22,547 bases of DNA from a virus (IMGVR_UViG_3300006929_000139:1-22547), one strand, 5' to 3'; counted from the first letter of the stretch, positions 1 to 22,547 are shown. Notes: a model not told the origin generated them from the letters alone. Translations and numbers: made by a program.

Positions 1-1
1 A

Positions 2-223
2 CAAAACGATTTGGATGCAGTAAACAACCAGATTGAAACCTTTGCTGAAGAGCTAAGGAAAATAGATGCGGCAAGGGAAAATATAGTAACGCAGATTACA
101 AATTTAAACGGGGTGTCGATGTACTTAAGGGGGAAGCTGGCTACTGAAGATGAAGTAGTTGAAGAAGAGTCTTCTGAAGATGATTTAGAAAGAACTTCAG
201 AGTACCCAGAAGAAACATCATAA
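2..223 (+). CDS. coiled-coil protein, 5' end missing
   Basis: Unrecognised protein. The reading frame is open back to the window edge (codons for Q-N-D precede the TTG at 11), so the real start probably lies upstream and this is a C-terminal fragment of at least 73 residues. The visible part has a heptad-like, charged helical pattern (around NNQIETFAEELRKIDAARE) followed by a very acidic tail with many Glu residues ending in EETS. It lies 20 bp before the head-tail connector gene, so it may be a small head or neck accessory protein or chaperone; that is inference from position only. A start at TTG 11 is possible but has no visible ribosome binding site inside the window. Confidence 0.6.
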   Translation, partial: QNDLDAVNNQIETFAEELRKIDAARENIVTQITNLNGVSMYLRGKLATEDEVVEEESSEDDLERTSEYPEETS

Positions 224-243
224 ACCCCCAAATGGGGAGATAA

Positions 244-1359
244 ATGGCTACAACCGATTTTAGTTTTACAAGCGTATTAACTTATAACGGTTCTAATTAC
301 GGAGATATGACCTTAGAGGCACAAAAGCCCGGAGGAACTTCGTTTGGGGCCTTTGTAGGAACAAGCCATTTTTTATATTTAGGGCATGATACTAAATTTG
401 ATATGGCTATTTTTGATATTGATACCGCAGGAAGTCTTGGGACTTTAAAGTATGAATATTACAACGGTAGTGCATGGACTGAATTTAACCCAGCCTCAGC
501 ACTTTATGCCCAAGACCCAGACGACGACCAAGATGCTCAATATGCATTTGACGCAGACGGAGCAGAAACATTTCCTTTAAATAGATTGGATAATTGGGCT
601 ACCGTAGCGATAGACAGCAAAACTAAATATTGGGTACGCATCTCTAGTCCCACTAGTGTTAGTACTGCCCCAACCTTTAAACGTATTCAGATGCGTCCGT
701 TAGCTGCATATTGCTCAACCAAAGATGTATTTGATTTAATGCAGCTTAGTGCGGTATTAGGGGGAACTGATTTTACTACAAGTACTGTACCTACTAAAGA
801 CTTAGTAGAAAAATTTATTGACGAATCTCAATCTTACATAGATTATATGACTCGTAAATCATGGAGACCTAATATTGTATACGATGAATACCATGAATTT
901 AATTTAAGTGGGTTTAAATTAGATAGACCAGACCCTTCAAAAATTATACACGTAAAAATATGGAATGGGTCTTCATGGGATATTAAAACTCAAGGCAGAA
1001 AAGGAGATTTCTTTTTAGTCCATGATACTGGAATGATACATTTTTCAAGGTATTTTTTACTGCCAGCACGATTTCAATCTTATAATGCCCCAGTCTGGAG
1101 ATGGGGAGGCGGCGAATTTACCATGCCTATTAAAGTTACTTATTTAAATGGGAGAGATTTTAATACGGATGTAAGAGAAAATGGCATTGTCCACGATGCC
1201 TGTAAAAAATTAGCTGCTATAAACGTATCACGTAATGCAGACTTCGGTGGATTAATTGTAAGTGGTATGGATAGAGTTCCTACCCCACAGCGTTTAGAAA
1301 GCTGGAAAGCGGAAATCGACGAACAATTAGAAAGCCTAAGAGCTTTTGAAATATTTTAA
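244..1359 (+). CDS. head-tail connector protein with N-terminal beta-rich domain
   Basis: 371 residues; ATG follows a GGGGAG ribosome binding site. The C-terminal part (about residues 155-371) resembles the gp6/Ad1-type head-tail connector family: a start like STKDVFDLM, a helix LVEKFIDESQSYIDYMTR followed by a Trp-containing turn, and a C-terminal helix (around residues 345-368). Such proteins form a ring under the portal and join the DNA-filled head to the tail. The first 150 residues are an added beta-rich domain with aromatic and acidic loops (YYNGSAW, then WVRISS near its end), the look of a beta-sandwich as in virion decoration or sugar-binding modules. Connector alone is usually 100-200 residues, so this is a clear extension. 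Position next to the tail genes supports the role. Family assignment is by pattern, not search. Confidence 0.6.
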   Translation: MATTDFSFTSVLTYNGSNYGDMTLEAQKPGGTSFGAFVGTSHFLYLGHDTKFDMAIFDIDTAGSLGTLKYEYYNGSAWTEFNPASALYAQDPDDDQDAQYAFDADGAETFPLNRLDNWATVAIDSKTKYWVRISSPTSVSTAPTFKRIQMRPLAAYCSTKDVFDLMQLSAVLGGTDFTTSTVPTKDLVEKFIDESQSYIDYMTRKSWRPNIVYDEYHEFNLSGFKLDRPDPSKIIHVKIWNGSSWDIKTQGRKGDFFLVHDTGMIHFSRYFLLPARFQSYNAPVWRWGGGEFTMPIKVTYLNGRDFNTDVRENGIVHDACKKLAAINVSRNADFGGLIVSGMDRVPTPQRLESWKAEIDEQLESLRAFEIF

Positions 1360-1369
1360 GAGGTAAATA

Positions 1370-1807
1370 ATGCCAGAACCAGTAGCAGTTACCGACATAT
1401 TAAGTGAACTTGATGGGCAATGGAATGCCTCTAATGTAACAAAGCCTGAAATTGTAGAAATGAATGGGGCTGCAGGAGTTACACGTATAGACCTTAATAG
1501 AGGAGATTACGTAGTAGGGCAGCCCGGTAGTCCTACAATGGAAGAAATTCCTATAGGTAACTGGAAATATGTAAACAGAACTTATGGTGTTAGCCTTATG
1601 GTATATACCAAAACCAGCAGGCAACGTCTATATGATTTAATGCGGGAGGTTAGGAAAATATGTCATGTCCGTAGGCATAGCATGACTAACTTTCAACGAT
1701 TACAATTTTTAAACTTCAATGAAGAGGTTACGGAACAAGTAAATGTATGGTCTGGAATAGTTTCATTACAAGCAGTTAATGAGAATGTTTTAGCAGAAAC
1801 TACGTAA
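1370..1807 (+). CDS. probable tail terminator / neck protein
   Basis: 145 residues, ATG after AAGAGGTAAATA, 10 bp after the connector gene. The middle (residues about 65-105) has beta strands then a helix-rich stretch RQRLYDLMREVRKICHVRR, ending in a beta strand (VWSGIVSLQAV). Size, mixed alpha/beta pattern and place between connector and major tail protein fit the tail terminator (gpU/gp17-like) or tail completion proteins, which cap the tail tube and dock it to the head. I do not recognise a diagnostic motif, so the role rests mainly on gene order. It could instead be a second head-tail connector ring. Confidence 0.45.
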   Translation: MPEPVAVTDILSELDGQWNASNVTKPEIVEMNGAAGVTRIDLNRGDYVVGQPGSPTMEEIPIGNWKYVNRTYGVSLMVYTKTSRQRLYDLMREVRKICHVRRHSMTNFQRLQFLNFNEEVTEQVNVWSGIVSLQAVNENVLAETT

Positions 1808-1859
1808 ATATGAGTATAATAATAAGAAGAACTTTGTTCTTTCCTAATTAGGAGGAAAT
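1808..1859 (+). promoter_or_regulatory. leader of major tail gene: TATAAT box and stem-loop
   Basis: This 52 bp gap is the largest without coding on either side that I found. It contains a perfect TATAAT at 1815-1820, then a perfect 6-bp inverted repeat AAGAAC/GTTCTT (1827-1832 and 1836-1841, loop TTT), then the strong ribosome binding site TTAGGAGG at 1848-1854 before ATG 1860. I see no good -35 box 15-19 bp upstream, so a sigma-70 promoter is uncertain in such AT-rich DNA. The stem-loop is not followed by a clear T run, so it looks more like a 5' mRNA-stabilising or processing structure than a terminator. Confidence 0.35.
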
Positions 1860-3548
1860 ATGGCAATATATAGGTCGGACCAAGCCCAACTTACATTTGG
1901 CCCTGAAGCTGCGGCCGGAGGTTACGCCGAATTAGCGTATGGCAATACTTTAGCTAGTGGTTCTAACGGCAGTTCGCCCTATGAACATGGGCTTTTAGAC
2001 CATGCAAGCGGATTACCTGCTGGGTCTATTCAAATAAAAGTTGATGATATTGAAAGCGGTTTTACTTTTGCCGCTGAAGACATTATTCAAATAAATAGGT
2101 TAAACCACGCTACTCAAGCATCTGAAATTAGGATGGTTGTTTTTGCAACGGCTAATGTTGCCAACGTACAAACTTTAACATTAGACGCTCCAACGGGTTT
2201 TTACCACGCTAATAATGAAACAGTTAATAAAGTTTTAGCTGCAGCAGACCAAAGCACTGGTGTTTTTATTAATACTATTCCGGGTGTTTACGATACTGTT
2301 GATTTACCCGACCCCGAAATGAGTATTGAACCTCACTACTTTTTAGGGACAGCTGCTAAACGTAATTTTAATAGAGTTGTAAGCGGGCAACAAACCTTTA
2401 GTGGTAGTATCGGAGGATTTGTTTTACTTAATGGGAAAGCTTTAAGATTTCCTATAGGTAGGGTTGTTTCTGATGTTTCTTCCGTAGCGGCTAGAACCTA
2501 CTTATCAGCTAGTACAAAAAAAGGTGATGTTAATATTACAGTTAATTCAGCTACCAACTTAGCGGCCGGAGATATTATTGGAATTGATGTTCCAACTGCG
2601 GTATCTTCTGGAACGGTTAGTTCCACTAGCGTAGGAGAATTAAGAAAAATTGTTACTGTAGCTAGTACTAATTTGCAATTAGACTATCCTTTACAATATG
2701 ACCATACTGCTGCTGGGTCGGGAACTACACAAATTACTGAAGCGGGTTCTTCTGTCTATACACATACTATTTTAGAAACCGTGGATTTAGATTCTATTAG
2801 TTGGCATGCTCATATGCGAGCTTCAAATGAAACTGCTACACATGATTTTGACAGACGCTATTTTGGGGGGAAAGTAGGAAGCGCTTCCATATCTGCTGAA
2901 GAAGGTGGAATGTTATCAATGTCATGGGATGGGGTTAACTTCTTAGGAATGATTCATAATCAAGCTCAAAACGCTAGTAATGTTGAAACCCCGTTTTATT
3001 CTGTTATGCAGCCTATTATCAGCACCGATGTGGTTCAGCCTACTACAGAACCTTATTATTTTTCTCAAGGGGTTGTAACTTTATTTGGTACGGAAGTAGC
3101 TAGGTTACGAAGTTTTAATATTTCAGTAAATAATAATGTAGAGCCTAGATACTACATTCAACAACGAATGGGTAGACATCGAGGACCTACAGAAATTAGA
3201 GAGCAAAGAAGAGAATATACTATGTCGGCAACAATGGCTGTTGCAGACTCAGCGACAAGTACCGGAGCTGCTAATTCTCTATTTAAAGAGTTACTTTTTG
3301 AAGGGGATTATGGAAGCGGAAAAACTGGTTTTTCAATTACTTTAGTATTTACACGAGGAACTAACGATACTATTACAATTACTATTCCAGATGACGGTAC
3401 AGCGGGAACTGGTGGACATAATCAAGGAGCCTTTATTAGAAGCGCTGGGCATAACATCACTTCAGATAATCCAGTACAAGCGGATGTAGATATTTTGTTT
3501 AGAAATATGTTAATTGAAGTTGTAGATGGGGAATATTATTATCCATAA
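1860..3548 (+). CDS. major tail (tube) protein
   Basis: 562 residues, ATG behind a very strong AGGAGGAAAT site, as expected for an abundant structural protein. It is beta-rich throughout with no enzyme motif. Place after the terminator-like gene and immediately before the tail assembly chaperone is the standard place of the tail tube subunit, which forms the hollow tube through which DNA passes. It is larger than typical tube proteins (about 150-350 residues). The extra length includes two inserted beta modules, about residues 56-127 and 213-300, with the pattern of a strand, AAGDIIGID or AEDIIQIN, then a second strand and a loop ending in a HxA/HTA motif; similar modules recur in the 1629-residue hub protein. 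C-terminal half (about 320-562) is likely the tube fold. Role inferred from order and composition. Confidence 0.65.
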   Translation: MAIYRSDQAQLTFGPEAAAGGYAELAYGNTLASGSNGSSPYEHGLLDHASGLPAGSIQIKVDDIESGFTFAAEDIIQINRLNHATQASEIRMVVFATANVANVQTLTLDAPTGFYHANNETVNKVLAAADQSTGVFINTIPGVYDTVDLPDPEMSIEPHYFLGTAAKRNFNRVVSGQQTFSGSIGGFVLLNGKALRFPIGRVVSDVSSVAARTYLSASTKKGDVNITVNSATNLAAGDIIGIDVPTAVSSGTVSSTSVGELRKIVTVASTNLQLDYPLQYDHTAAGSGTTQITEAGSSVYTHTILETVDLDSISWHAHMRASNETATHDFDRRYFGGKVGSASISAEEGGMLSMSWDGVNFLGMIHNQAQNASNVETPFYSVMQPIISTDVVQPTTEPYYFSQGVVTLFGTEVARLRSFNISVNNNVEPRYYIQQRMGRHRGPTEIREQRREYTMSATMAVADSATSTGAANSLFKELLFEGDYGSGKTGFSITLVFTRGTNDTITITIPDDGTAGTGGHNQGAFIRSAGHNITSDNPVQADVDILFRNMLIEVVDGEYYYP

Positions 3549-5890: not shown

Positions 5891-8800
5891 ATGGCAGCTC
5901 CTAATGTAAGTTTTTTCTATTATGATAAAGCAAATACTCAATGGAAAGAAGCTAGAACTCATAGCGGAAATAATGCTGTTAAGTTATGCTATATAACAAA
6001 AGCAATTAACAATCCTAGTACAGCTGAAGTTACCTTAGCTAATCCATCTAAAGATAGTGGAGAAACTGATACTGCTAAAAGCACCGGAGCTTTAACTGAT
6101 GTTTTTTCTTCGTACACGCCCGTTTTTATTCGGGATAATGAGACAGGTTTAATTTTATTTCGGGGCAGAGTTCAAAAAAATCAAGAGGGTTTTAGTTACG
6201 AAGAAGGTAAAGATATTCTTGTAGTTTGTAAAGACGCTTTACAAGAATTAGTTGAAGTAGCAGCAGGTGCTATGCCGAGTAGCTTAAAACAACTTACATT
6301 AACTCCAGCTGGTAGTGTAGAAATTAGCGATACTACACTGGGCGTAGCAGTCTCTTCTAATAGTGCTACAAGTATTGTAATTGTGAATCCTAAAGATTTT
6401 TTTGAAGGGCAGTATATTCAATTGACTGGGGCTCAAAGTACTGAGGTTATGCAAATTACCAGCTTGTTTAATGCAGATGGTAGCATGACAAGTACAACCG
6501 GAGGATATACCGTAGGAGTAGAAAGAGCTAAAAAAAATCCTATTACAGGGTCTGCTACTACCGCAAACTCTTCAATTTCTCAAGGAGCTTCTGTATATGT
6601 TTATCCTACGAAATATCGAGGGGAAATAATTAGACAAATTATTAGTGACACTAGTGTAAATATACATTTACCTAATACTAAATTTGATGGAAGTACAGCT
6701 GGAAGTGATAATGGTGCAATGGTTCGTAGTGAGAATTCACATTATGAACTTTTACAAACGGACACCGTTCAAACTTATAAAGAAGTATTAGACCCAAATA
6801 ATAATAACATTGCTACTGTCGATATTTCTAGTTTAGGGGAAAATGCTCTTCAATCTATTAATTCTCTTGCAGCTTTAGACGGTCACGATAGTAATGAATC
6901 TAATAGTCACGTAGGGTGGGATTTTTATGTAGACCCTAATATTACAGAAATGATTAATCATGGTACGGCCAGTAGTACTTATGACCCCTTTAAAGCTGAC
7001 GGTACTCAATATTCTGCATTTAATTATTTTAAAAGAGGGACTCGACCATCACTATCCAGCTTTACTAGTGCTACCACTACTAGTTATGGGTTAACTATTG
7101 AATATCCTTCAAATAACTTTGTATCAATTGGAGACGCTTATAAATCTACCTTTATTCGTTCAGCATCTCCCCAATCAAGTTTTGAAGATGAGGATAGTAA
7201 ATTAGTAACTTCTTTATATGCTACATGGCATGATACAGGGTCGAATATTTTTCTAGATGAAAATTTCCATCTTGTAGAACAGAGTAATTTGAAAGGCGAA
7301 GCTACATACGAACTTCTTACGTGTAAATTAGGTAAAACTAGTAGTAATGTACATTTTGTTTATGATGATATGCTCGCTCCAAATTATGGTAAAACAGTGT
7401 GGTTAGGGGCTAGAGGTGCAATTAAACCAGTTAATCCAAATGTAGTTTTACAAAAAAATGGGAGTTATTATGGGTTAAATTTTAATAATTCTAAAATAGT
7501 TAGTTTAAGTTCTCAGTTGCTTTATAAATATGGGCAAAATAATCCATGTGCGGCTATTATTTATGCTACCGGAGACGGAGGGACAGCCCATGATGATAAA
7601 ATTGTAGTTACTCATATTTATGATTCTGCTACTGAGGTAGTTGATAAAGGTATGGAACCCGATGCATCTGGAGAGCCTCAGTCTGTTACATTTGAAGCAT
7701 TTCCCACCGGGACATCTGCCGTTAGATTATTTAACGCTCAGGCGGGAAGTTATGGAAATACAGATACTCCTAGCAATGTAGCTTATGTAGATGTTATTCC
7801 AGACACTGGAAGACCTATACTTAAACATAAAATTAATAAAAGTGCTTATGAAAAATTTAATCAATCATCTATAGGAGATATTAGGACAGCTATTTTTAAA
7901 AAATTAGATGAGGGTTCAGTAGGTAGAGTTACTACAGCAAAAATGTCTACGGCTAGATATCCCTATACTAAAGTTATAGCTGACCCAGACAAATATAATT
8001 ATACAATTGGTTCTGCAACTACCATAGTATTTAGTGCGAATGCTGCTGGAACTAAAGCCTTTTTAAAAGCCGATGCCGGGCATGGGGCAGCAGTAAGTTA
8101 CACTAATGATATTAGAGAATTTGGTTTAAAGCCCGGAATGCCTATTGTTGAATTAGACGAAAAAGGCTTAGTTGCTAGATATGCTTATGTAAAATCTTGC
8201 GCTGTTGCAAATGCTGGACAATCAACAGAAACTATTACTATTACTATAAGTGCTACTTCCGATGGTGTGGCTTTGTTTAATAGCGGTACTACTTTATCAG
8301 CGGATATAGATACTACAAGCAATACAAATATTACCGTAGCTGACGGCAGTAAATTTGATGTGGGGATGTATATTAAAATTGACGCTGAAGCAATGCTTAT
8401 TACAGCTATTTCAGGAAATACATTATCTGTTACAAGAGCACAATTTGGAACTAGTGCTGATGGAAGTGGGCACGATTCTGGAGACGCTGTATATAGATAT
8501 CGCAGAGTAGCATTTATTATTCCTACAGAACCCGGACATGAAGTTCGAGTAAAAAGTAAACATGTAAATGCGAATTACGATGCTATTGTTAAAAATGTTG
8601 ATTTTGAATATACGGGCGCAGGGGTTAGAGGTTACCTAGAAAGTGTAGGTATTAATATTAAAACTACTTCTGCTAATAGTGTAGGAGTACCTACTATTGA
8701 ACCTACTTTAATTAATGCTGTAAATAAACAATCTTTTAATGTTAATTATGCTAATCCCGCATTTAAAGCGGATGAAAATTTAGCAGACGATAGATGGACT

Positions 8801-10780
8801 TTAAAAACTGGACGTATTGTAGCTTCAAATAATAAAACTATATCTGTAGTAAGTTTATTTAAAACTCAGTTAAATGAAGCTTTAGATGCAAGTGAGACTG
8901 GGGTAGATGTAGACGATGGCTCGGTATTTAAAGTAGGACAAACAATTCAAGTAGATTCTGAACAAATGTATATTAGCGGTAAAAGTACTAATACCTTAAC
9001 AGTTACAAGAGGTTATAACGGAAGCACTGCTGCAACACATACTGATAATGAATACATTTCTGTTAGCACTGTTACCTTAACTAGAACAGGGTCTCGTCCC
9101 GTAACAATTCATATTTCCGACGCAGATATAAATGGAGGAATTCATATAGAAGACGGTTCCGTAGATTCGGATTTAGCTTTTAAATCTCATACTCTTTATT
9201 ACAGAGCTCCTTTTGATGAGGCAGGTAATTCAATACCTAGTGGAAGTTCTAAAATCCAAGCTTACCCCGATAGGAGTGCGTCGGATGATGAGAGTATTTT
9301 TGATGACATTAAACGTCCTACAGATATTATAATTGGAAAAGCTAGAGCTATATCCACCACAAGTACGTTTTTAGCAGAGTTTGAATTATATATTAGAACA
9401 ACTTCTATGGATAATGGGATACTTACCTATGGAGCACAGAATCTTCCTGCTTACGCAATGAAACAAAGTGGGCAGTACTGGTCTACAAACTTTAAAATTG
9501 AAGGAGTTGCTTGGAACCAAATTAGATGGGGGTTAAATGGTACAATAGCAAGTAATGCTACTATTTCTTTTGGGGATGATTCTACTCAGACTATATATGC
9601 CTCTGATGAAAGCGCAAAATATACTGGGTTATCATACCCTAGTGGTGTGTCTTACTCTAATCCAAACTTTACTCTTCCTGCAGCCACTACTTTGTATGTA
9701 TATAAAGATGTATCTACAGACAATGTGAATAATGATACGGGAAAAACTCTCTATTTTACTACTACTTATTCGGATGTTTATAAAGATGATAGGGTTTTAT
9801 TAGCAGTTGTAATTACGGCAGCAGATGCTACAGCAGCGGGGGATGAGGCAACACCGTCAATTTTTCCCTTCGGGGCAGGTGAAGCAACCTTTACTAGTGC
9901 TGTAATTAAAGCTGGGACTTTTACTACAGGTATTACAGCGGGAATGACGGGTATAGATATTACTGCTAATGGTCAAATATTTACTCATGAACCCGATGCA
10001 ACTGCGGCAACCTATGCTAATGGCGTAACAGGTTTTATTTTAGAATATAATAATGGGGACCCTAGATTTAGAATTGGGACTAGTAGTAGCTATTTAAAAT
10101 TTGATGCGAGTGCTGGAACCCCAACACTAGAAATAAAGGGAGAGTTTACTGTAGCGAATGGAAACATTAGCCTTAAAGATGACGGATTAAAATTAAATAA
10201 TGGTACAGCTAATCAAATTGTTTTTAATGTCGGTGGTACTGGACAGATGCAACAGTTTTATAACCATAGCACTGGCTATTTAACTTTTAGTAAAACGAAT
10301 TCAGCTGGTGGGGTATATATAGCTCAAGATGTACTAGCAGGTACTGGTGAGATAACTGGAGCTCTTTCAAAAGGTAGCGGAACTTTTAAAATTGCCCATC
10401 CTTTAGATAAAGATAATAAATATTTATATCATGGATTTATTGAAGGACCTAATTATGATTTAATTTATAGAGGTAAAGTAAATCTAGTGGGCGGTACGGC
10501 AACTGTTAATATAGACACAGTTTCTAATATGACTGCAGGGACATTTGTAGCTTTAACACAAAACCCCGATTATTATCTGCAAAATAATACTAGTTGGGAT
10601 GCGGTAAAAGGAAGTATTTCAGGAAATACATTAACCATTACTTGCCAAAATAGTAGTTCAACGGATACAGTTTCTTGGATGGTCGTCGCTGAACGGGCTG
10701 ATGACCTAATTAAAGAAACAAAGTTATCTGACAGCGATGGGCATTTAATTCCAGAATGGGATAAAGCAGATATAGACTAA
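5891..10780 (+). CDS. tail hub fused to receptor-binding fibre
   Basis: 1629 residues, ATG after GAGAGGTAAATAA; largest gene in the window. Residues 1-130 resemble the baseplate hub (gp27/gpD/Tal) fold: strands with AEVTLANPS, PVFIRDNETGLILFRGRV, then a helix KDALQELVEVA. More hub-like sequence follows near 245-350. Three small beta modules occur at about 147-240, 800-872 and 993-1058, the last two with the pattern KIDAEAMLI/QVDSEQMYI, NTLxVTR, then a His-containing loop, a common decoration of phage tail proteins. The C-terminal part (about 1380-1610) is fibre-like; residues 1492-1612 contain a domain I recognise from marine phage fibres (GTFKIAHPL, GFIEGPNYDLIYRG, DTVSWMVVAER). It probably forms the tail tip that opens the tube and binds the host. 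No intramolecular chaperone motif was seen. Confidence 0.7.
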   Translation: MAAPNVSFFYYDKANTQWKEARTHSGNNAVKLCYITKAINNPSTAEVTLANPSKDSGETDTAKSTGALTDVFSSYTPVFIRDNETGLILFRGRVQKNQEGFSYEEGKDILVVCKDALQELVEVAAGAMPSSLKQLTLTPAGSVEISDTTLGVAVSSNSATSIVIVNPKDFFEGQYIQLTGAQSTEVMQITSLFNADGSMTSTTGGYTVGVERAKKNPITGSATTANSSISQGASVYVYPTKYRGEIIRQIISDTSVNIHLPNTKFDGSTAGSDNGAMVRSENSHYELLQTDTVQTYKEVLDPNNNNIATVDISSLGENALQSINSLAALDGHDSNESNSHVGWDFYVDPNITEMINHGTASSTYDPFKADGTQYSAFNYFKRGTRPSLSSFTSATTTSYGLTIEYPSNNFVSIGDAYKSTFIRSASPQSSFEDEDSKLVTSLYATWHDTGSNIFLDENFHLVEQSNLKGEATYELLTCKLGKTSSNVHFVYDDMLAPNYGKTVWLGARGAIKPVNPNVVLQKNGSYYGLNFNNSKIVSLSSQLLYKYGQNNPCAAIIYATGDGGTAHDDKIVVTHIYDSATEVVDKGMEPDASGEPQSVTFEAFPTGTSAVRLFNAQAGSYGNTDTPSNVAYVDVIPDTGRPILKHKINKSAYEKFNQSSIGDIRTAIFKKLDEGSVGRVTTAKMSTARYPYTKVIADPDKYNYTIGSATTIVFSANAAGTKAFLKADAGHGAAVSYTNDIREFGLKPGMPIVELDEKGLVARYAYVKSCAVANAGQSTETITITISATSDGVALFNSGTTLSADIDTTSNTNITVADGSKFDVGMYIKIDAEAMLITAISGNTLSVTRAQFGTSADGSGHDSGDAVYRYRRVAFIIPTEPGHEVRVKSKHVNANYDAIVKNVDFEYTGAGVRGYLESVGINIKTTSANSVGVPTIEPTLINAVNKQSFNVNYANPAFKADENLADDRWTLKTGRIVASNNKTISVVSLFKTQLNEALDASETGVDVDDGSVFKVGQTIQVDSEQMYISGKSTNTLTVTRGYNGSTAATHTDNEYISVSTVTLTRTGSRPVTIHISDADINGGIHIEDGSVDSDLAFKSHTLYYRAPFDEAGNSIPSGSSKIQAYPDRSASDDESIFDDIKRPTDIIIGKARAISTTSTFLAEFELYIRTTSMDNGILTYGAQNLPAYAMKQSGQYWSTNFKIEGVAWNQIRWGLNGTIASNATISFGDDSTQTIYASDESAKYTGLSYPSGVSYSNPNFTLPAATTLYVYKDVSTDNVNNDTGKTLYFTTTYSDVYKDDRVLLAVVITAADATAAGDEATPSIFPFGAGEATFTSAVIKAGTFTTGITAGMTGIDITANGQIFTHEPDATAATYANGVTGFILEYNNGDPRFRIGTSSSYLKFDASAGTPTLEIKGEFTVANGNISLKDDGLKLNNGTANQIVFNVGGTGQMQQFYNHSTGYLTFSKTNSAGGVYIAQDVLAGTGEITGALSKGSGTFKIAHPLDKDNKYLYHGFIEGPNYDLIYRGKVNLVGGTATVNIDTVSNMTAGTFVALTQNPDYYLQNNTSWDAVKGSISGNTLTITCQNSSSTDTVSWMVVAERADDLIKETKLSDSDGHLIPEWDKADID

Positions 10781-10790: not shown

Positions 10791-11171
10791 ATGAGAACTG
10801 ATAAAAAAATTATCAGACTACGAAAACAGCAACCTTTATTGACGGGCTCGGCTATAGCACGTAAACTTAATATTAGCAGGCAATACGTCTCTAGAATTTT
10901 ACAACATGCGGGGCTAAATAATACACAACCACATTATAGGAAACAAGTTACTACTTGTTTATTTTGCGGTAAGATAACATTTAGACATCAAAAGTTTTGT
11001 CCTAACAGTGATTGTAGAGAACAATATTACTATATAGATGTAACATGTTCTTTCTGTCATTATAACTTTAAGTTACTTAAAAGTACTGTAAAAAAGGGAT
11101 ATGCAAGAGGTAGTAGATATATCTACTGTAGCTCTACTTGTTATTCTAAAGGTAAGAAACAGGGTACTTGA
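10791..11171 (+). CDS. HTH and double zinc-ribbon DNA-binding protein
   Basis: 126 basic residues. Residues 17-42 (TGSAIARKLNISRQYVSRIL) form a clear helix-turn-helix of the transposase/regulator type. Two cysteine clusters follow: C56-x2-C59 with C70-x4-C75, and C86-x2-C89 with C113-x3-C117, each the layout of a zinc ribbon. Together they indicate a sequence-specific DNA-binding protein. It is the first gene after the tail block and is followed 1 bp later by a sigma-like factor, so transcription control is the best guess. HNH endonucleases can carry similar zinc ribbons and HTH, but I see no HNH catalytic histidines. The ribosome binding site is weak (GTGGTTAATA). Confidence 0.6.
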   Translation: MRTDKKIIRLRKQQPLLTGSAIARKLNISRQYVSRILQHAGLNNTQPHYRKQVTTCLFCGKITFRHQKFCPNSDCREQYYYIDVTCSFCHYNFKLLKSTVKKGYARGSRYIYCSSTCYSKGKKQGT

Positions 11172-11172
11172 T

Positions 11173-11733
11173 GTGGACATTAATGATGAATTATTGGAGA
11201 AGTGGGAACCTAAAGTCCAGAAGTTTCTCCAGACAACTTTCGTTACTGGGATGGATAGGGAAGATATCGCCCAAGAACTTCGTATAGCTATAATAAAAGC
11301 TGCTGACCATTACGATGATTCTAAAGGGGTAATCTTCCATACTTATTTACATACTGTAATGGTAAACACATTACGTACCCTTATCTCTAAAGCTCAAAAA
11401 ACTAAAAATGTTAACATTACATATAGTATTGACGGCATGGATGTTAATGATAATCCCCAAGGTTTTCTTCCTAATGAAATAGCTAATTCCCTTGCAGATG
11501 AATCAGCAGTAGAATTTGTTAATAATATAGAATTAATGGATATTATTACCCGTTCTGGGCTAACCCAACAAGAGTTAAATTTTTTAGAGCTTAGGTTAGA
11601 AGGCATGACGATGGAATTTATTTCTGAACGCCTAGAAGACTCTGCTTATAAAGTTAGAAATGCTATCCAAAAAAAGATTCAAGCGTTTATTTTAACTAGG
11701 GAGAAGTTAAATGAGAAAACGGAGAAAAAATAG
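11173..11733 (+). CDS. RNA polymerase sigma-70-like factor
   Basis: 186 residues from GTG 11173. The frame is open further up to ATG 11101, but that would overlap the zinc-ribbon gene by 71 bp with no good ribosome binding site; GTG 11173 starts one base after the upstream stop and has AGGG at 11160-11163. Residues 10-75 match sigma region 2: MDREDIAQELRIAIIKAADHY, then FHTYLHTVMVNTLR, which in sigma factors binds the polymerase clamp and the -10 element. Residues 128-172 (LTQQELNFLELRLEGMTMEF and the next helix) match region 4, the HTH that reads the -35 element. A linker without region 3 joins them, as in ECF and phage sigma factors. It probably redirects host RNA polymerase to phage promoters. 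Confidence 0.7.
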   Translation: MDINDELLEKWEPKVQKFLQTTFVTGMDREDIAQELRIAIIKAADHYDDSKGVIFHTYLHTVMVNTLRTLISKAQKTKNVNITYSIDGMDVNDNPQGFLPNEIANSLADESAVEFVNNIELMDIITRSGLTQQELNFLELRLEGMTMEFISERLEDSAYKVRNAIQKKIQAFILTREKLNEKTEKK

Positions 11734-11952: not shown

Positions 11953-13218
11953 ATGGAAAAGTATGAGTTTATAGAATCAGCAATTGTTTTAGGATTAAAC
12001 TCGTTTGAGACCCTTAAAAAGTTTAAACATGTACAGTCAGACTTTGTTATGCATGGGGATGCGTATAGATTTTTAATAAAATATGTAGATGATTATTCAG
12101 ACTTCCCAACGGTAGAATTAATGTTAGAGAGTTATCCCACATTAGATATTTCAGCACGGGATATTAAGTTTGATTATGCATTAGATAAATTTAAACAGCA
12201 GATTTTAACTCGACAGGTTATTCACGCCTTTCAAGTGAACAAAGATATTATTCATGATGACCCGAAAAAAGCTTATATGAATATTATGTCGTCAATGAAT
12301 GATATTAATGCTATGACAGATGAGGATATTATTCATTATGATGATAAGTCTTTAGATAGGCTATCGGAATGGAGAGCCCGTAAAGAACGGAGAGAGCTTG
12401 AGGGGGGTTTAATGGGTATCCCTACCCCGTTTGACTCGATTAACAGGTCAGGAGTAGGGTGGATGGATGGTGATTTAATCGCTATGTTTGCTAGACCCAC
12501 AGTAGGGAAGACGTGGATGTGTGCTGAAATGGCAGCTACTGCTATGTTAGCAGGTGTAAAGACTCTCTTTGTATCTACTGAAATGTCTACTCAATCTATT
12601 ATGATGAGGCTAGACGTTATACTAGCTAGTAAATTAGGGTATGAGCTTTCGCATAGAGCCCTAAGACATGGGGAAGAAATTAACGAAGAGCTTTATTCAG
12701 ACGTACTTAAACAATTAGACACTAAAAACTTACTTATATGCGACCACATTAGTGGGCAGCCTAGTATAACGATTGAGTCTATTGAAGGTTTAGTACGTAA
12801 ACATAATCCTAGCTTTATAGTCTTAGATGGAATTTACTTAGTTTCTACTGGAATTGGTAGAAGTGCTATGTGGGAACAATCTCATGAACTATTCTATGCA
12901 ATGAAGAACTTATGCAAGGCACAAAATGTAGCTATGTGTGTAAGTACTCAGGCTAATAGAGATGCCGCTAATATGTTTGAGCCTCCCAGTGCCTCTCAGG
13001 TGGCGTTTGGAGATGCTTTAATTAGAGCCGCAGACGTGGCTTTGTCAATGTGTAGAGTACAAGATGGGGACGGGGACGTGAATGAGCGTCTACGAAGGGT
13101 TCAAGTCCAAAAGATTAGAGATAGTGAAACCTATATAGATAATATGTATATGACATGGAATGTAGATAAAGGTGAAATAAAGGAGATGATAGGATATGAA
13201 CCATACGCAGAATACTAA
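11953..13218 (+). CDS. replicative DNA helicase, DnaB-like
   Basis: 421 residues, ATG after GTAGGAGAGACT. N-terminal helical domain (about 1-120) of the DnaB-N type, then a RecA-like motor. Visible motifs: Walker A ARPTVGKT (180-187; E. coli DnaB has ARPSMGKT), catalytic Glu in VSTEMS (E210), Walker B FIVLDG (288-293), the polar sensor VSTQANR (Q333), and a late basic stretch RLRRVQVQKIRDS. It would form a hexamer on the lagging strand, unwind the fork by 5'-3' movement and recruit the primase encoded just downstream. Slightly shorter than cellular DnaB (about 450-470). The primase gene overlaps its end by 23 bp. Confidence 0.85.
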   Translation: MEKYEFIESAIVLGLNSFETLKKFKHVQSDFVMHGDAYRFLIKYVDDYSDFPTVELMLESYPTLDISARDIKFDYALDKFKQQILTRQVIHAFQVNKDIIHDDPKKAYMNIMSSMNDINAMTDEDIIHYDDKSLDRLSEWRARKERRELEGGLMGIPTPFDSINRSGVGWMDGDLIAMFARPTVGKTWMCAEMAATAMLAGVKTLFVSTEMSTQSIMMRLDVILASKLGYELSHRALRHGEEINEELYSDVLKQLDTKNLLICDHISGQPSITIESIEGLVRKHNPSFIVLDGIYLVSTGIGRSAMWEQSHELFYAMKNLCKAQNVAMCVSTQANRDAANMFEPPSASQVAFGDALIRAADVALSMCRVQDGDGDVNERLRRVQVQKIRDSETYIDNMYMTWNVDKGEIKEMIGYEPYAEY

Positions 13219-14083
13219 TGTCGATTGGGCTCATTTATTATTATCCGCTGATTTAGACATACCAATAGGTAAATCAGAGTTTAGCATTGTATGCCCATTC
13301 CATGATGATTCTGTAGCGTCATGTTCAATTAATGTGGATAAAGGTGTATGGATATGTTTTGCAGGGTGCGGCCAAGGTTCCCTAGCAAAATTTCTCCAAA
13401 GGCTTTTAAACATCAGCGACTCTGAAGTAAACGAACTAGTTTATAAAAATGAGTATTCTTTAAACCTCGATTTTTTTGAAGATGTGGAACCCACCGAAGA
13501 ATTTATGCCTGAAGTGGAACTACCTTCTGAAGTTATTGCTGGAACATATCCCGCATGGGTATACCAGAGAGACTTTAAAAAGGTTACATTAGAGTCGTGG
13601 GGATGTAGAACAAATAATCATGGAGATTTAATTATTCCTATTCATGATATAGATAGCAAGTTAGTAGGATGGGTTTCTCGCAGACCTTTTCTAGTACCTA
13701 AGTATTTGTATAGTAAAGGTTTAAAAAAATCTAAGGTGATATTTGGTGGGAATAGAGTGGAGTCTTGTAGATTTGTATGTGTAACAGAAGGTACTTTAGA
13801 CGCTATGTGGCTAACTCAAAATGGTTATCCGGCAGTGGCTATTCTAGGAATGGATATGTCAAAAGCCCAACAAAAGCTATTAACTTCATTACCTACACAG
13901 GAGATAGTTCTTTGTTTAGATAATGATGAAGCCGGAACTATAGGCTTTAATAAAGCTTTTTCCGCATTAACACAATCTATAATTACAACTTTTATTAAAA
14001 TTCCTAACGAATATAAAGACGTTCAGGACATTAGAGAGAAAAAAATACTTGACAGAATAATTGCCGATAGATATTATTGGTAA
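13196..14083 (+). CDS. DNA primase (CHC2 zinc finger and Toprim)
   Basis: 295 residues. ATG 13196 lies inside the helicase end, preceded by AAGGAG at a good distance, so the two are translationally coupled. Zinc finger: C33-P-F-H36 and C54-x3-C58 (WICFAGCGQG), which reads the template priming site. Toprim domain: Glu198 in VTEGTLDA and the DxD pair D242/D244 in LCLDNDEAG, which bind catalytic magnesium. It would make short RNA primers for lagging-strand synthesis. About half the length of bacterial DnaG and lacking its helicase-binding C-terminal domain; T7 joins the same activities in one gp4 chain, here they are split. Confidence 0.85.
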   Translation: MNHTQNTNVDWAHLLLSADLDIPIGKSEFSIVCPFHDDSVASCSINVDKGVWICFAGCGQGSLAKFLQRLLNISDSEVNELVYKNEYSLNLDFFEDVEPTEEFMPEVELPSEVIAGTYPAWVYQRDFKKVTLESWGCRTNNHGDLIIPIHDIDSKLVGWVSRRPFLVPKYLYSKGLKKSKVIFGGNRVESCRFVCVTEGTLDAMWLTQNGYPAVAILGMDMSKAQQKLLTSLPTQEIVLCLDNDEAGTIGFNKAFSALTQSIITTFIKIPNEYKDVQDIREKKILDRIIADRYYW

Positions 14084-14852: not shown

Positions 14853-17054
14853 ATGATAGTAAATACAGATAGTCTATTTCAACAGGCTATTGAGGATTTA
14901 TCATCATATTCATCTTGGACAGTAGATGTAGAAACGAATGGCTTAGATGCTTATGGTTACAACCAGCTTTGTGGCATAGGCATAGCCATCGACCGTAAAT
15001 CGGACTCAACGTATTATTTTCCATTTAGGCATCAGCAATCCGGGAACTTAAATCCTTCATACCTCCCTACCTTGATGGACCTAATGAGTACTCGAACTGA
15101 ACTACTTGGATATAATCTAAAGTTCGATTTACGGTTCCTAACAAATGATGGGTTAGATATTAGCAACACTAAGTTAATTGATGTAATGCTGCTAGTTAGG
15201 TTAACCGCAGATTCTACTGTAAATGAATTAGGTTTAACAAAAACCTTAACTAGATTTTATGGTCCTCAAGCCGCAGAATACGACATAGAAACAAAGAAAT
15301 ACTTACGGTCTAATAAATGGCATAAAGACTTTTCATTAGCTCCGCCAGATGTTTTGGGGGAGTATTGTGAATATGATGCATACTGGACCTTACACCTTTA
15401 TAAAGATTGCTTAGGTAAAATTGAACAAAGTAATCAGCAAAAAATCTTAGAGTTAGAATATGAATTAACTCGTGTATTATTTGATATGGAAAGTAGGGGA
15501 GTAATTATTGATTCACAATATGCTCAACAAACTATTAAGAAAATTGAAGAGCGGAAGATAGAAGTAGAAGCTAAGATATTTGAGCTTAGTGGTAAAGAAT
15601 TTAATATTCGCAGTACACAAGAGATAGGAACTATATTTAATGATATGGAAATTTACTCTAATGTACTTACTAATACTGGTAGGCAGTCATGGGGAACTGC
15701 GGCTTTAGCCCAGATTAACCACCCATTAGCTGGATTTATAAGACAGCATAGAGCCTTAACTAAACTATCTTCTACGTATCTTGAGCCTTACATTGAAAAG
15801 CCTGTACTACACACTAACTTTTGTAATTGGGGAACTTTAACCGGGAGGTTATCTTCAAGGGAACCCAACTTACAGAACATTCCTCGAAACCATTTTAATC
15901 TTAGAGATAGGAAACTATCCGCTGAGGAGTTAGAAATAGTTCAAGGACGTATAGAAGCTACAGCTAATTTAGAAGAAGGGGTTCATTTAGATAACGATGT
16001 GTTAAATACATGGGGCTTTATGGGAGACGAGTCTTACGACGAATCTGATGACCGTCAAGTTTCTATTAGAAGATTGTTTTTACCCAGAGAAGGTTATCAA
16101 TTAGTAAGCTTTGACTATTCTCAAATGGAAGTTAGGGTCTTTTTAAGTTATTTGCAGAATGATAGTATGCAAAACCTTTTAAATAGGACTGATGTAGACT
16201 TTCATGGGGAAGCAGCAAAGATTGCATTTGAGTTAGATGAAGATGACCCACAGTTTAAGTACTATAGGCAAATGGCTAAGGGGATTACTTTTGGAATTAT
16301 ATATGGAATTGGTAATCAACGTCTTGCTCAGCAACTACAGACTACTAAGCAAGAAGCCGGGAAGTATAAGAAGAGGTACTTAGACAGCATTGAAGGCTCT
16401 AGAGAGTTTATACGAGGCGTTATGAAGGCTGTAGAGAGCCGAGGATGGATAAAGAACAAGTATGGTAGGGTTTATAAGATACCATCTGGTATGAGCTATA
16501 AAGGAGTTAATTACTTAGTTCAAGGTACTAGTGCAGATATATTGAATGAAAGGTTAATTAAAGTAGATGAATTTCTACAAGGTAAGTTAAGTAAACCTTT
16601 ACTTCAAGTCCACGATGAAATTATTTGTGAAGTACATGAAGATGAGATGGATGAAGTAGTTCCGGAGATTATTAATATAATGCAGACTAATAGTTTAGGA
16701 ATTCCTTTGTTTGTTGATAAAGAGGTTTGTACCCCATCATGGGCTACTAAGATGGACTATGAAGATTACGTGACATCTTATGCAGATAGTGATACACTTA
16801 AAAAAATTACGAAAACGGAGGGCATTATGCCGAAGATTACATCCCACCTCGGAGTCACTATGAATGTTGGCAAAGACGGCTCGAATCAATATGCTAGATT
16901 AGACATTACAATTAGTGATATAGATACTGAAATACCTTTAGAACCCCAACTTGAAGATAGTAATAAAGTAATTGATGCAGTATATCAAGCTACTAAAGAA
17001 AAACTATCTGCTCAGATTAGAGATTTACGTAATAGAAACTCTGATAAGGACTAA
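14853..17054 (+). CDS. polA: DNA polymerase I family A with 3'-5' exonuclease and C-terminal module
   Basis: 733 residues, ATG after CTAGGAGAGAAG. Proofreading exonuclease (about 15-190): VDVETNG (D25, E27), GYNLKFD (N88, D92), YCEYDA (Y171, D175). Polymerase: SSREPNLQNIPR near 334-345; motif A SFDYSQMEVR (D421); motif B R472-x3-K476-x3-F480-G-x2-Y484; motif C VHDE (H587-E589). F480 is the position of E. coli Phe762, so the ordinary Phe is kept. No 5'-3' exonuclease domain is present. Odd features: about 58 extra residues (346-404) between NLQNIPR and IRRLFLP, acidic in the second half, and about 75 residues beyond the polymerase fold (659-733) with an internal ATG and ribosome binding site. 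This is the replicative polymerase of the phage. Confidence 0.9.
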   Translation: MIVNTDSLFQQAIEDLSSYSSWTVDVETNGLDAYGYNQLCGIGIAIDRKSDSTYYFPFRHQQSGNLNPSYLPTLMDLMSTRTELLGYNLKFDLRFLTNDGLDISNTKLIDVMLLVRLTADSTVNELGLTKTLTRFYGPQAAEYDIETKKYLRSNKWHKDFSLAPPDVLGEYCEYDAYWTLHLYKDCLGKIEQSNQQKILELEYELTRVLFDMESRGVIIDSQYAQQTIKKIEERKIEVEAKIFELSGKEFNIRSTQEIGTIFNDMEIYSNVLTNTGRQSWGTAALAQINHPLAGFIRQHRALTKLSSTYLEPYIEKPVLHTNFCNWGTLTGRLSSREPNLQNIPRNHFNLRDRKLSAEELEIVQGRIEATANLEEGVHLDNDVLNTWGFMGDESYDESDDRQVSIRRLFLPREGYQLVSFDYSQMEVRVFLSYLQNDSMQNLLNRTDVDFHGEAAKIAFELDEDDPQFKYYRQMAKGITFGIIYGIGNQRLAQQLQTTKQEAGKYKKRYLDSIEGSREFIRGVMKAVESRGWIKNKYGRVYKIPSGMSYKGVNYLVQGTSADILNERLIKVDEFLQGKLSKPLLQVHDEIICEVHEDEMDEVVPEIINIMQTNSLGIPLFVDKEVCTPSWATKMDYEDYVTSYADSDTLKKITKTEGIMPKITSHLGVTMNVGKDGSNQYARLDITISDIDTEIPLEPQLEDSNKVIDAVYQATKEKLSAQIRDLRNRNSDKD
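16827..17054 (+). CDS. possible separate C-terminal product of the polymerase gene
   Basis: In-frame ATG 16827 inside the polymerase gene is preceded by GGAGGG at 16817-16822, four bases upstream, a site as strong as those of real genes here. It would yield 75 residues starting MPKITSHLGV. The segment lies after the end of the polymerase fold: strands (LGVTMNVGKDGSNQYARLDI) then a charged helix (AVYQATKEKLSAQIRDLRNR). This strand-strand-helix pattern looks to me like a stand-alone small phage protein that often occurs as its own gene, but I cannot name the family. It could be a domain fused to the polymerase, made independently as well, or only a chance site. Confidence 0.35.
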   Translation: MPKITSHLGVTMNVGKDGSNQYARLDITISDIDTEIPLEPQLEDSNKVIDAVYQATKEKLSAQIRDLRNRNSDKD

Positions 17055-17063: not shown

Positions 17064-18002
17064 ATGAAAGACAATGCAGAAGAGGTTATACAACAACTTC
17101 TTGCTAAAAAAGATTTAAACTTATTTAGAGGAAGTAATGATGCGTTTTCTTATGAGCGTATCCCCTTTGGTATTCCAGCATTAGACTCCCTTACGGGAGG
17201 AGGGATACCTAAAAAGCGTATGACTCTTCTGTACGGTCCTACCGATGTAGGAAAATCTTACTTAGCCTCTCAAATAGCTCGAAATGCGCAATTAGCGGGT
17301 GGTACTGCTGGTTGGATAGATACAGAGTTGTCGTGGGATGTGAACTGGGTTACAAAATGTGGCTTAGACGCAGAAAAGATTCTGGTCTCTCAACCCCCTA
17401 ATGGGGAAGATGCATTAGAGATTGTTAGAGAGATGATGAAGGCAGGGGTTGATGTTATTGTTTTAGATAGCATTGCTGGACTTGTGCCTACTACAGTTGC
17501 TGAAGAGGAGTTTTCCTACAACCCAATGGCATGGCAGGCGAGATTCATTAACTCAGCCCTACCAAAACTTCTTCCTAACCTAAAACACGGCTCTGCGTTA
17601 GTGGCAATCAATCAGGTTCGCTCAAGTTTGGGACCCGTTGCCATAGACAACATGCCCGGTGGATTAGCACAAACTTTCTTTTCGCATTTTCTCCTGCAAG
17701 TTAGACGTAGCGGATGGATTGAAGAAAACAAGCAAAGAGTTGGATTTGATATGGAAGTGCGTTTACGCAAGAGTAAGGTGGGTGGTGAGAACTGGAGGTC
17801 GGCTGTTGTGCCATTTAGGGTTGATGGTGGGATTGATATATTAGAAAGCTTCATTAGAGAAGCTATAGATATAGGACTTATAACTAGAGCAGGGGCTTGG
17901 TATAGTTATAAAGAAGATAAGGTTATGGGATTAAATGGATTGAAACAATTCTTTTTAGATAATCCGGAAAAAATTGATGCCTTAAAGCTTGAAGTTGTAT
18001 GA
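17064..18002 (+). CDS. recA: RecA-type recombinase
   Basis: 312 residues. Walker A GPTDVGKS (58-65), catalytic Glu in WIDTELSWD (E88, matching DAE of RecA), Walker B VIVLDS (131-136), NQVR (184-187, as NQIR in RecA), and PGG followed by FFSHFLLQVRR (matching the L2 loop and the strand after it). The C-terminal GAWYSYKEDKV motif matches bacterial RecA more than T4 UvsX. It coats ssDNA and drives strand exchange, supporting recombination-dependent replication and repair. It lacks the full C-terminal domain of cellular RecA (about 350 residues). Ends with an ATGA overlap into the next gene. Confidence 0.85.
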   Translation: MKDNAEEVIQQLLAKKDLNLFRGSNDAFSYERIPFGIPALDSLTGGGIPKKRMTLLYGPTDVGKSYLASQIARNAQLAGGTAGWIDTELSWDVNWVTKCGLDAEKILVSQPPNGEDALEIVREMMKAGVDVIVLDSIAGLVPTTVAEEEFSYNPMAWQARFINSALPKLLPNLKHGSALVAINQVRSSLGPVAIDNMPGGLAQTFFSHFLLQVRRSGWIEENKQRVGFDMEVRLRKSKVGGENWRSAVVPFRVDGGIDILESFIREAIDIGLITRAGAWYSYKEDKVMGLNGLKQFFLDNPEKIDALKLEVV

Positions 18003-18298
18003 ATATAAAACCTACAGATTTTACTCATCAAGAGAACATTATTGCAGAATGTTTATCTGACATGGGAATGAGGTTTGAACAACAAAAACAATTTGGTAAT
18101 TATACAGTTGATTTTTGGATAGCTGATTTAAAGTTTGTAATTGAAGCTGATGGGGTTTATGGACATTTAAAAAAACGAGATATGAAACGGGATATGGATT
18201 TAATGGAAATTCCATCTATAGAATATATTTTTCATATTAGGGCTGAAACTAAAACACGAGTTCAGGAGGAATTATGGCGAGCCTTAGCGAGCTGCTAG
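17999..18298 (+). CDS. DUF559/Vsr-like endonuclease
   Basis: 99 residues, starting in an ATGA overlap with recA. The arrangement Q11-E12-N-I-I, then D38 in NYTVDFWI, then E49-A-D51 in KFVIEADG, and a basic GHLKKRDMKRD helix, matches the DUF559 group of small PD-(D/E)XK nucleases related to Vsr. Such enzymes nick or cut DNA, in Vsr at mismatches. The ExK lysine is replaced (E-A-D), as is common in DUF559. With RecA and a Cas4-like nuclease around it, a role in end processing, branch cleavage or homing is possible. No family search was done. Confidence 0.65.
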   Translation: MNIKPTDFTHQENIIAECLSDMGMRFEQQKQFGNYTVDFWIADLKFVIEADGVYGHLKKRDMKRDMDLMEIPSIEYIFHIRAETKTRVQEELWRALASC

Positions 18299-18930: not shown

Positions 18931-18932
18931 AT

Positions 18933-19445: not shown

Positions 19446-19448
19446 AAA

Positions 19449-20380: not shown

Positions 20381-20393
20381 AGGAGTATAAACT

Positions 20394-20897
20394 ATGTTAG
20401 GAAAAGGTGGTCTACAAAAAGTAGGACCTGAGATTAGGCAAGCATTTATAGGACCTGCAAAAAAGAAAATTCGTAAGTATGAAGATACATTTCCAAAAGA
20501 TTTGCCTACTATAGAGGATGTAAAAGCTAAACATGGAACGGTTGTGTGGTGTAAGTATACAGATTGTAAATACAATCAAGAAATAGATGACTTACAACGA
20601 ACTAGCAGTTCTATCATGAAGAACAAAACATATAAACCTATAGGTGAGCAAGAGCATATTTGGGTTAATGTGTGTACTAAGGATGAAATTTCAATTAAGT
20701 TTCAAGAAGTAGAGCCAAGCAAAAACACAACGGTTAAAGTTCCTTTTTGTTTTTCAGCAGCTAATAAAACAGCGGGGCACATAGACTTTACTAGATTCTT
20801 AAATTCTGATGGAAGCCCATTAGGGGGAAACATTGATTCCCAACATGTGTCCGATGACGGATATGGTGGATTAGACCCTAATAGCTTTTATCAATAG
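20394..20897 (+). CDS. unknown protein with CxxxxC metal-site-like motif
   Basis: 167 residues, ATG after AAAGGAGTATAAACT. Basic N-terminus (GPAKKKIRKYE), then C53-x4-C58 in VVWCKYTDCKYNQ, later C94 in VNVCTKDEISIKF and C119. The C-x4-C-x2-N ... C-x4-I-x-I arrangement is like the small cysteine-containing DUF1540 type, which may bind metal, but this is only a resemblance. The C-terminal 50 residues are Gly/Asp/Ser-rich and look disordered. It lies just before the terminase genes, so it could be a packaging accessory or regulator; no function can be claimed. Confidence 0.5.
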   Translation: MLGKGGLQKVGPEIRQAFIGPAKKKIRKYEDTFPKDLPTIEDVKAKHGTVVWCKYTDCKYNQEIDDLQRTSSSIMKNKTYKPIGEQEHIWVNVCTKDEISIKFQEVEPSKNTTVKVPFCFSAANKTAGHIDFTRFLNSDGSPLGGNIDSQHVSDDGYGGLDPNSFYQ

Positions 20898-20905
20898 GAT
20901 ATTTT

Positions 20906-21403
20906 ATGCCAAAGCGTATACCACAAGAAGTAAAAACTAAAGCTATGGAATTCTTTTTAGAAGGTAAACCTGCTAGAGAAATTGCGGAAAAAGTTAGTGA
21001 CACGTTTAATGTACAAGTTAAACCTTCTACTATTTATGCGTGGGCGAATCAATATAAGTGGGGAGAGACCAGAGCCGTTTCAAGGGCAGATGCCGTGGAG
21101 AGAGTTAAAGAAACAGAGACTCAACGCTATGCTAGACTTCAAGAAGAGCATTTAGATACTTATGAAGGTTTACGTAGGAAAGCATCAGCTGAATTAAATA
21201 CGCAAATGTTTGATAGAGCATTTGATGCTGCGAAAGCGTTAGATTTAGGAATTAAAGGCGAGAGGGCAGTAATGTCTGGCTTGGTAAGTTTGCAATTTAT
21301 ACAAGATGTTATGGAAGTTCTTATAGATGAGGTAACTGACCCTGAGATTTTAAGTAGGGTTGCATTAAAATTAAAAGCATTGGTAGAAACAGATAATGAG
21401 TAA
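20906..21403 (+). CDS. terS: terminase small subunit
   Basis: 165 residues, 8 bp after the preceding gene. N-terminal helix-turn-helix (about 7-55): EVKTKAMEFFLEGKPAREIA, then PSTIYAWANQYKWGE, typical of TerS, followed by a long charged helical region and a C-terminal helix bundle (EVLIDEVTDPEILSRVALK). TerS recognises the packaging site and stimulates the large subunit. The adjacent downstream gene is the large subunit, overlapping by 8 bp, which makes the call firm despite weak sequence conservation of the family. Confidence 0.7.
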   Translation: MPKRIPQEVKTKAMEFFLEGKPAREIAEKVSDTFNVQVKPSTIYAWANQYKWGETRAVSRADAVERVKETETQRYARLQEEHLDTYEGLRRKASAELNTQMFDRAFDAAKALDLGIKGERAVMSGLVSLQFIQDVMEVLIDEVTDPEILSRVALKLKALVETDNE

Positions 21404-22547
21404 TCAACATTCAACTACATTTGGGGACGCTTTAAATCGGTTAGCCGATGGTTTAGAAGCACGTCAAGCTATTAAGGTAGGTAGTTTTTGGGAGTTTCTA
21501 CGAGACATCTGGAGTTTATCATTTGACCATCCAGAATATTTTAAAGCTTGGCATGTTGGTGTAGTTGCTGAAGATGTGGAGAGATGTCTTGAAGAGGGGT
21601 TAAACTACGTTGCTATCCTCCCACGGTTCCATTTTAAGTCTACCTTACTAGGACACGCCTTTAGTGTTTGGAGGCTCTTAAAAGCCAACAGGGACTGTTC
21701 TGTGCTATATCTTTCTTACAGCGACCATATGGCTAGATATCATTTAAGTGAAATTAATAAATCTGTAAATCGAAATCCTATTCTAAAAGAATGGATGGTT
21801 AATCGAAGCCCTAAAGCAGATTATTCTTTTAGATATTATGTTAATGGAAATCCAGTTGAGATTGCTCATGGAGGTCTTTTTTCATTTAAACGAGGTATGC
21901 ATGTCAATGGAGCTTTGATTGCAGATGATATACTTCGTGACCCAGATAACCCATTAAATATGGGACAAATACATAAGGTTGAGGACCATTTCTTAACTGA
22001 ATCAATGTATATCCCACTAAAAGGCGTTCCTTCTATAGTACTTGGGACACCTATGTTACCCGGAGATTTGTTAACTAAACTCCAATCTGATGACCGATTT
22101 TTTACTAGAGTTTTGCCCGCACTAGACCCAGAGCCCGGACGTAGGGTATTAATGCCAGAACTTTATACAGAAGAATGGTTATTACAGCAACAGAAGGCTA
22201 GACCTAAATCTTTTGCATCAGAGTTTTTGCTAGTTCCACATTTATCTACACAATCTTATTTTGAAGAAGAAGAAATAAGTAAATGTGAGAAGCTTGATTT
22301 GGTAAACCATTCAGCATATAAGACATATGATAATAATGGTACTGACCAGCTATTTGCTGGTTTCGATGTTGGAAAGAAAAGACACCCATCTCATTTAGTT
22401 ATTTTTAGACGTAAAGGTTCTTTGATAGAGCAGGTACATCAATCATGGTTAGATGGTTGGAACTATTCTGACCAAATAGAATATTTAAATCAGGTAGCAG
22501 AAAATTTTAATATTCAAAGAGGGTATATAGATAATACTAGAGGAGAG
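21396..22547 (+). CDS. terL: terminase large subunit, 3' end cut by window
   Basis: At least 384 residues, open to the window end; start ATG 21396 overlaps terS by 8 bp. ATPase motifs: Walker A-like PRFHFKST (76-83; most terminases have a Gly where the second Phe stands), Walker B LIADDIL (D177, D178), coupling motif VLGTP (215-219). After about residue 320 the RNase H-like nuclease starts, with D324 in FAGFDVGKK as first metal ligand; the rest lies beyond the window. It pumps DNA into the procapsid and cuts concatemers. The presence of terminase after the recombination block, while the tail lies upstream, indicates that capsid genes follow beyond this end or the map is circular. Confidence 0.85.
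   Translation, partial: MSNQHSTTFGDALNRLADGLEARQAIKVGSFWEFLRDIWSLSFDHPEYFKAWHVGVVAEDVERCLEEGLNYVAILPRFHFKSTLLGHAFSVWRLLKANRDCSVLYLSYSDHMARYHLSEINKSVNRNPILKEWMVNRSPKADYSFRYYVNGNPVEIAHGGLFSFKRGMHVNGALIADDILRDPDNPLNMGQIHKVEDHFLTESMYIPLKGVPSIVLGTPMLPGDLLTKLQSDDRFFTRVLPALDPEPGRRVLMPELYTEEWLLQQQKARPKSFASEFLLVPHLSTQSYFEEEEISKCEKLDLVNHSAYKTYDNNGTDQLFAGFDVGKKRHPSHLVIFRRKGSLIEQVHQSWLDGWNYSDQIEYLNQVAENFNIQRGYIDNTRGE

Follow-up and report, generated by a model that had tools for sequence, protein, structure and literature searches.

Absence of GATC from the window

Why does a long piece of a phage genome carry no GATC at all? The question is raised by the IMG/VR virus record IMGVR_UViG_3300006929_000139:1-22547, part of the genome of an uncultured marine tailed phage; "the window" below means this whole stretch of 22,547 bp. 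By motif counts, positions 1 to 22547 are free of GATC, CCWGG and CGCG across a tail module, a replication module and a terminase region. The tail, terminase, PolA, DnaB and DnaG genes, together with the virus record, place the window among the dsDNA viruses of prokaryotes.

The genes named here all lie on the plus strand. The tail region encodes a conserved phrog_17057 protein with no assigned function (244 to 1359), a minor tail protein (phrog_290; 1860 to 3548) and a 1,629-aa protein (5891 to 10780) that has no Pfam match and is, from its size and position, probably a tail fibre or baseplate protein. Further along are an RNA polymerase sigma factor-like protein (11101 to 11733), a DnaB-like replicative helicase (11953 to 13218), a DnaG-type primase with zinc ribbon and Toprim (13196 to 14083), a family A DNA polymerase (14853 to 17054), a UvsX/RecA-like recombinase (17064 to 18002), a small DUF559/Vsr-like endonuclease in the replication module (17999 to 18298) and a terminase small-subunit-like protein with a Terminase_5 match (20906 to 21403). 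A conserved protein truncated by the window end (21396 to 22547) was read as the putative large terminase; it has no Pfam match, is complete at 574 aa in contig L002 and matches annotated phage terminases at 22%. L002 is 99.97% identical to the window and prolongs the run without GATC to 27,051 bp (0 observed against 43.3 expected by the Burge method in these 27 kb), and the near-identical contig runs on into a class II-like ribonucleotide reductase. No integrase was noticed in the window, which covers only part of the genome.

The total lack of GATC noticed in a preliminary description was confirmed by an exact count of zero on both strands, with z about -10 against Markov, Burge and codon-preserving models. 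The same description had expected about 70 sites, which holds as a composition-only value (73), whereas better models give 36 to 56: 53 by dinucleotide shuffles, 47.8 by a second-order Markov model, 36.4 by the Burge compositional-bias method and 49.6 to 55.5 by codon-preserving shuffles, whose minimum was 35 in 400 and 39 in 1,000 shuffles. None of these expectations is near zero. Palindromes of the same composition are normal and as common as had been claimed (CTAG 83, CATG 71, GTAC 74, AGCT 128).

The avoidance is visible codon by codon. There are 315 GAT codons before A, G or T and none before C; Asp before C is written GAC in 37/37 cases, as the preliminary description had noted, and its example at 511 to 531 on the plus strand (CAA GAC CCA GAC GAC GAC CAA) reads as it was given. 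Where Ile follows a G, it is encoded by ATT or ATA and in no case by ATC, and GA|TC junctions number zero. GAT-C, G-ATC and GA|TC are all lacking, and GATC is therefore avoided in all three reading positions. A bias of composition, codon usage or mutation in the phage or its host might remove GATC without any selection by a nuclease, and the genome is indeed A-rich with some general under-representation of palindromes. However, the 50 to 56 sites predicted by codon-preserving shuffles, the normal counts of same-composition palindromes and the normal GATC of relatives with the same gene order leave such a bias next to no probability.

CCWGG and CGCG are eliminated as well

Two further sites, overlooked in the preliminary description, are eliminated in the window. 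CGCG is absent where codon shuffles give 12.7 (minimum 3 in 1,000), and CCWGG is absent where they give 12.4 (minimum 5). CCSGG is over-represented (14 versus 6.8 by codon shuffle); with CCWGG lacking and CCSGG in excess, what is avoided is therefore an EcoRII/Dcm-type specificity. GGCC is depleted, with a compositional bias of 0.38.

All the four- and five-base sites named here are Type II specificities, matched to enzymes from established knowledge. GATC, CCWGG and CGCG in the window, like GGWCC, CCGG, GGCC and GCGC in its relatives, are orthodox Type II sites. In a published survey, a site was called eliminated at a compositional bias (observed/expected) <0.1 with an expectation >15 (PMC6286503). 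GATC in the window falls within these limits (0/36.4, Burge); the Burge expectations of CGCG and CCWGG, 7 to 12, lie under the cut-off, and their elimination rests on the codon shuffles.

Maintenance in the clade of the window

The window was compared by alignment with eight GATC-free relatives from its own clade, whose DNA is 86-92% identical. Among 4,785 four-mers lying one mutation from GATC in either genome, none was GATC in the other, whereas other palindromes were converted at 0.6-3.3% of such positions; CGCG behaved like GATC (0/1,398). GATC is thus continuously kept out of this clade by purifying selection. One short relative, 93% identical in the terminase, holds a single GATC (1/15). 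The GATC sites of the relative G003 appear in the window mostly as GACC (12/29), a silent Asp change.

Distribution of GATC loss in the family

Through the polymerase or the terminase, 149 distinct relatives were found, of which 58, amounting to 585 kb with ~1,440 expected sites, contain exactly zero GATC. L113 (IMGVR_UViG_2785510824_000001) is a GATC-free relative with a record number of the kind given to isolate or single-cell genomes, to judge by its look. The largest GATC-free cases are G022 (0/202 in 81.6 kb) and G015 (0/161 in 66.9 kb). The ratio of observed to expected GATC is sharply bimodal, with very few relatives between 0 and 0.3 and the rest from 0.3 to 1, and no such zero class was seen for CTAG, CATG, AGCT, GTAC or TCGA.

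The GATC-free state requires 4 changes on a first tree, built on the polymerase, and 10 on a second, quick tree built on the terminase, where well-supported branches demand 8 of the 10. The view of selection acting for a long time in one host group consequently holds over the time spanned by the window's clade and fails for the family, given at least 8 changes of state and GATC-bearing relatives with terminases 88-90% identical. Relatives with and without GATC come from shared metagenomes (e.g., 3300046467, 3300025141, 3300006929, 3300028607 and 3300023192). This excludes an artefact of library preparation and speaks against one of assembly, such as digestion with a GATC cutter, which might be suspected since all relatives are metagenomic contigs. 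Fragment loss could not produce the codon-level change to GAC before C either, and we regard an artefact as practically negligible.

Partly depleted relatives offer a hint of the opposite change. G026 and G039 have none of their 11 and 12 GATC sites in common, as against 0.30 (30%) for control palindromes; G003 and G006 share 0.07 versus 0.15 for the controls, and G003 and G043 share normally. This suggests, from site positions, that partly depleted relatives may have re-acquired GATC after a GATC-free ancestor, the alternative being independent loss.

Lineage-specific sets of eliminated sites

Most longer contigs lack a lineage-specific set of sites drawn from GATC, CCWGG, GGWCC, CCGG, GGCC, CGCG, GCGC and CASTG, although some entries in shorter contigs rest on small expectations. 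Beside the GATC, CCWGG and CGCG of the window, GATC is eliminated with CCGG and GGCC in G004, with CCGG in G005, with GGCC in G007, with CCGG and GGWCC in G015, G017 and G019, and with CCWGG, GGCC and GCGC (plus CGCG) in G021 and G022. In other lineages GATC is normal, and the eliminated sites are CCWGG, CGCG and CASTG (G008, G013, G014 and G027) or CCWGG, GGCC and GCGC (G028 and G029). G041 and G042 have apparently regained GATC while CCGG and GGWCC are still at zero, with small expectations there. Eliminated sites thus turn over independently of each other among relatives. Six-base sites are likewise lacking in long contigs, for instance AAGCTT (0/21) and ACTAGT (0/19) in G028.

Two observations stand apart. 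In G027 (L197-L201), which lacks CASTG and CCWGG, the non-palindromic AGCTC/GAGCT is found once versus 69 expected, AGCT being common; this deficit suggests that the site avoided is asymmetric or longer. G003 (L178-L179) and G043 (L220), near kin of the window clade, have no eliminated site.

The selection first proposed, exerted by a GATC-reading defence of the host, is well supported: the avoidance is specific, is kept across 8-14% nucleotide divergence, extends to other Type II sites and is due neither to composition nor to codon use. It is not a single-motif phenomenon, however, with three sites here and other sets in relatives.

Phage methyltransferases and nucleases

Searches of 39-40 contigs, mostly fragments and GATC-bearing ones included, turned up no adenine methyltransferase of the D12, N6_N4 or Dam families. 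The window encodes no D12, N6_N4, Dam or C5 methyltransferase (D12 was searched in relatives including the near-identical G001). Since the contigs searched hold no adenine methyltransferase, the sites were probably removed rather than modified. C5 methyltransferases were detected, among the contigs searched, only in G021, G022 and G025, which form one GATC-free lineage. G022, which has two C5-methyltransferase-like genes, also encodes a quinolinate synthase (NadA; L169:1185-2393), a possible auxiliary metabolic gene.

A phage nuclease could in principle cut host GATC, the phage protecting itself by lacking the site, and the small endonuclease-like gene at 17999 to 18298, widely conserved, would be a candidate. 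However, DUF559 genes are present in 12/12 GATC-free versus 8/11 GATC-bearing contigs, and their sequences are similar in G003, where GATC is present, and in G004 and G005, where it is absent. Gene presence does not track the GATC state, and the DUF559 nuclease was rejected as its cause. Nor can a single nuclease explain three eliminated sites in the window and up to five in relatives; we judge a phage nuclease very improbable.

In a search for genes that might account for the differing GATC state of relatives, one family, family 46, proved exclusive to GATC-bearing contigs (6/11 versus 0/12 GATC-free). Its members (L205:11679-13034 and relatives) are 440-500 aa long, carry hydrophobic segments at the N-terminus and many repeats at the C-terminus, and mostly adjoin the ribonucleotide reductase. 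A role as a modification enzyme was rejected, since these are repeat proteins anchored in the membrane, and they have no match in Pfam. G028 additionally encodes a PnrA/Bmp-like ABC transporter substrate-binding protein (L205:8863-10005).

Search for the host

No near relative was found by DNA among cultured phages, the best terminase match being 22% identical. A scan of genome contigs with the terminase returned only phage-like contigs or remote matches, and a scan for relatives with the tail protein returned none. Substantial similarity in the genome collection was limited to JACOXG010000010.1 (L235-L240), a 109,932-bp contig of a Candidatus Daviesbacteria MAG. This contig has identical 99-bp ends and a gene set syntenic with the phage family of the window, and looks like a complete phage genome misbinned into a CPR MAG. 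It is not evidence that Daviesbacteria are the host. Apart from this misbinned phage, no tRNAs were found in the phage contigs scanned.

Discussion

The window is a real and very strong case of restriction-site elimination, ordinary in kind, that involves three sites and belongs to a family with repeated switching. We consider it very probable that unmodified phage DNA was selected to lose the sites cut by host Type II restriction-modification, a GATC-specific enzyme of the MboI/DpnII/Sau3AI type among them. The DNA injected by the phage would carry no protective modification at these sites, and in hosts with Type II restriction-modification, genomes with unprotected GATC, CCWGG or CGCG would be cleaved. 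Mutations that remove a site would be favoured, and those that create one purged, until zero remain. The GATC cutter would most likely be of the MboI/DpnII/Sau3AI type and act on unmethylated GATC. Lineages of the family would meet differing enzyme sets, and the sites eliminated would differ between lineages accordingly; a site would return once a lineage ceased to encounter the enzyme that cuts it.

Which enzyme is at work does not follow from avoidance by itself. GATC is the target of several systems other than Type II restriction-modification, and another host defence reading it, such as phosphorothioate-dependent restriction, a methyl-directed DpnI-type or Type IV system or a BREX-like system, might have exerted the selection. 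Enzymes of the DpnI type depend on methylation of GATC, and unmethylated sites would be safe from DpnI; the contigs searched yielded no adenine methyltransferase. In favour of such a defence, under-representation of Type IIM GATC sites has been described for phages of hosts that possess these enzymes (PMC6286503). Against it, elimination was essentially confined to orthodox Type II sites in that survey of ~4,000 viruses (PMC6286503). In our data the companions CCWGG, CGCG, GGCC, GGWCC, CCGG and GCGC are all ordinary Type II sites, and Type II restriction is therefore likelier than other GATC-reading defences, which we hold to be improbable. Of the candidates first put forward, enzymes of the Sau3AI/MboI type are favoured, whereas Dam and DpnI-type systems fit poorly, with no adenine methyltransferase in the phages examined.

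Elimination of Type II sites has been described for dsDNA phages that are non-temperate, in which avoidance is the stronger (Rusinov et al. 2018, PMC6286503). The present family resembles those phages in its compositional bias <0.1 at Type II sites, in the palindromic 4-5 bp sites concerned and in that no methyltransferase of its own is seen in the window. It differs in that the set could be followed, repeatedly changing, inside one syntenic uncultured family. The 140-kb genome of Staphylococcus phage K is free of GATC and escapes Sau3A, and this complete loss, like that of the window, was ascribed to a host Type II enzyme specific for GATC (cited in PMC6532042). Phage K and its host are unrelated to the phage of the window, in which two more sites are eliminated. 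Coliphages with and without a DNA hydroxymethylase indicate that avoidance is expected where protective modification is lacking (PMC6286503). Unlike in that comparison, G003 and G043 avoid nothing and carry no evident modification gene in their incomplete contigs, which counts against restriction by Type II enzymes as the mechanism; most contigs are fragments, and genes for a methyltransferase or another means of protection may be situated beyond the sequence seen.

Site elimination is already a known phage strategy, usually shown for single cultured phages. A single syntenic family provides dozens of natural replicates in which the same genes occur with GATC present, partly depleted or absent and other sites switch independently, and it makes it possible to measure how fast sites are lost and regained. 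It also yields predictions on the restriction enzymes of marine hosts, possibly helping to locate these hosts. We lean slightly towards the view that the eliminated-site set forms, lineage by lineage, a barcode of the Type II systems carried by never-cultivated hosts. On this view the barcodes turn over site by site and faster than core genes diverge, and phage sequence by itself could show what specificities are in circulation among marine bacteria and how frequently phages move from one to another.
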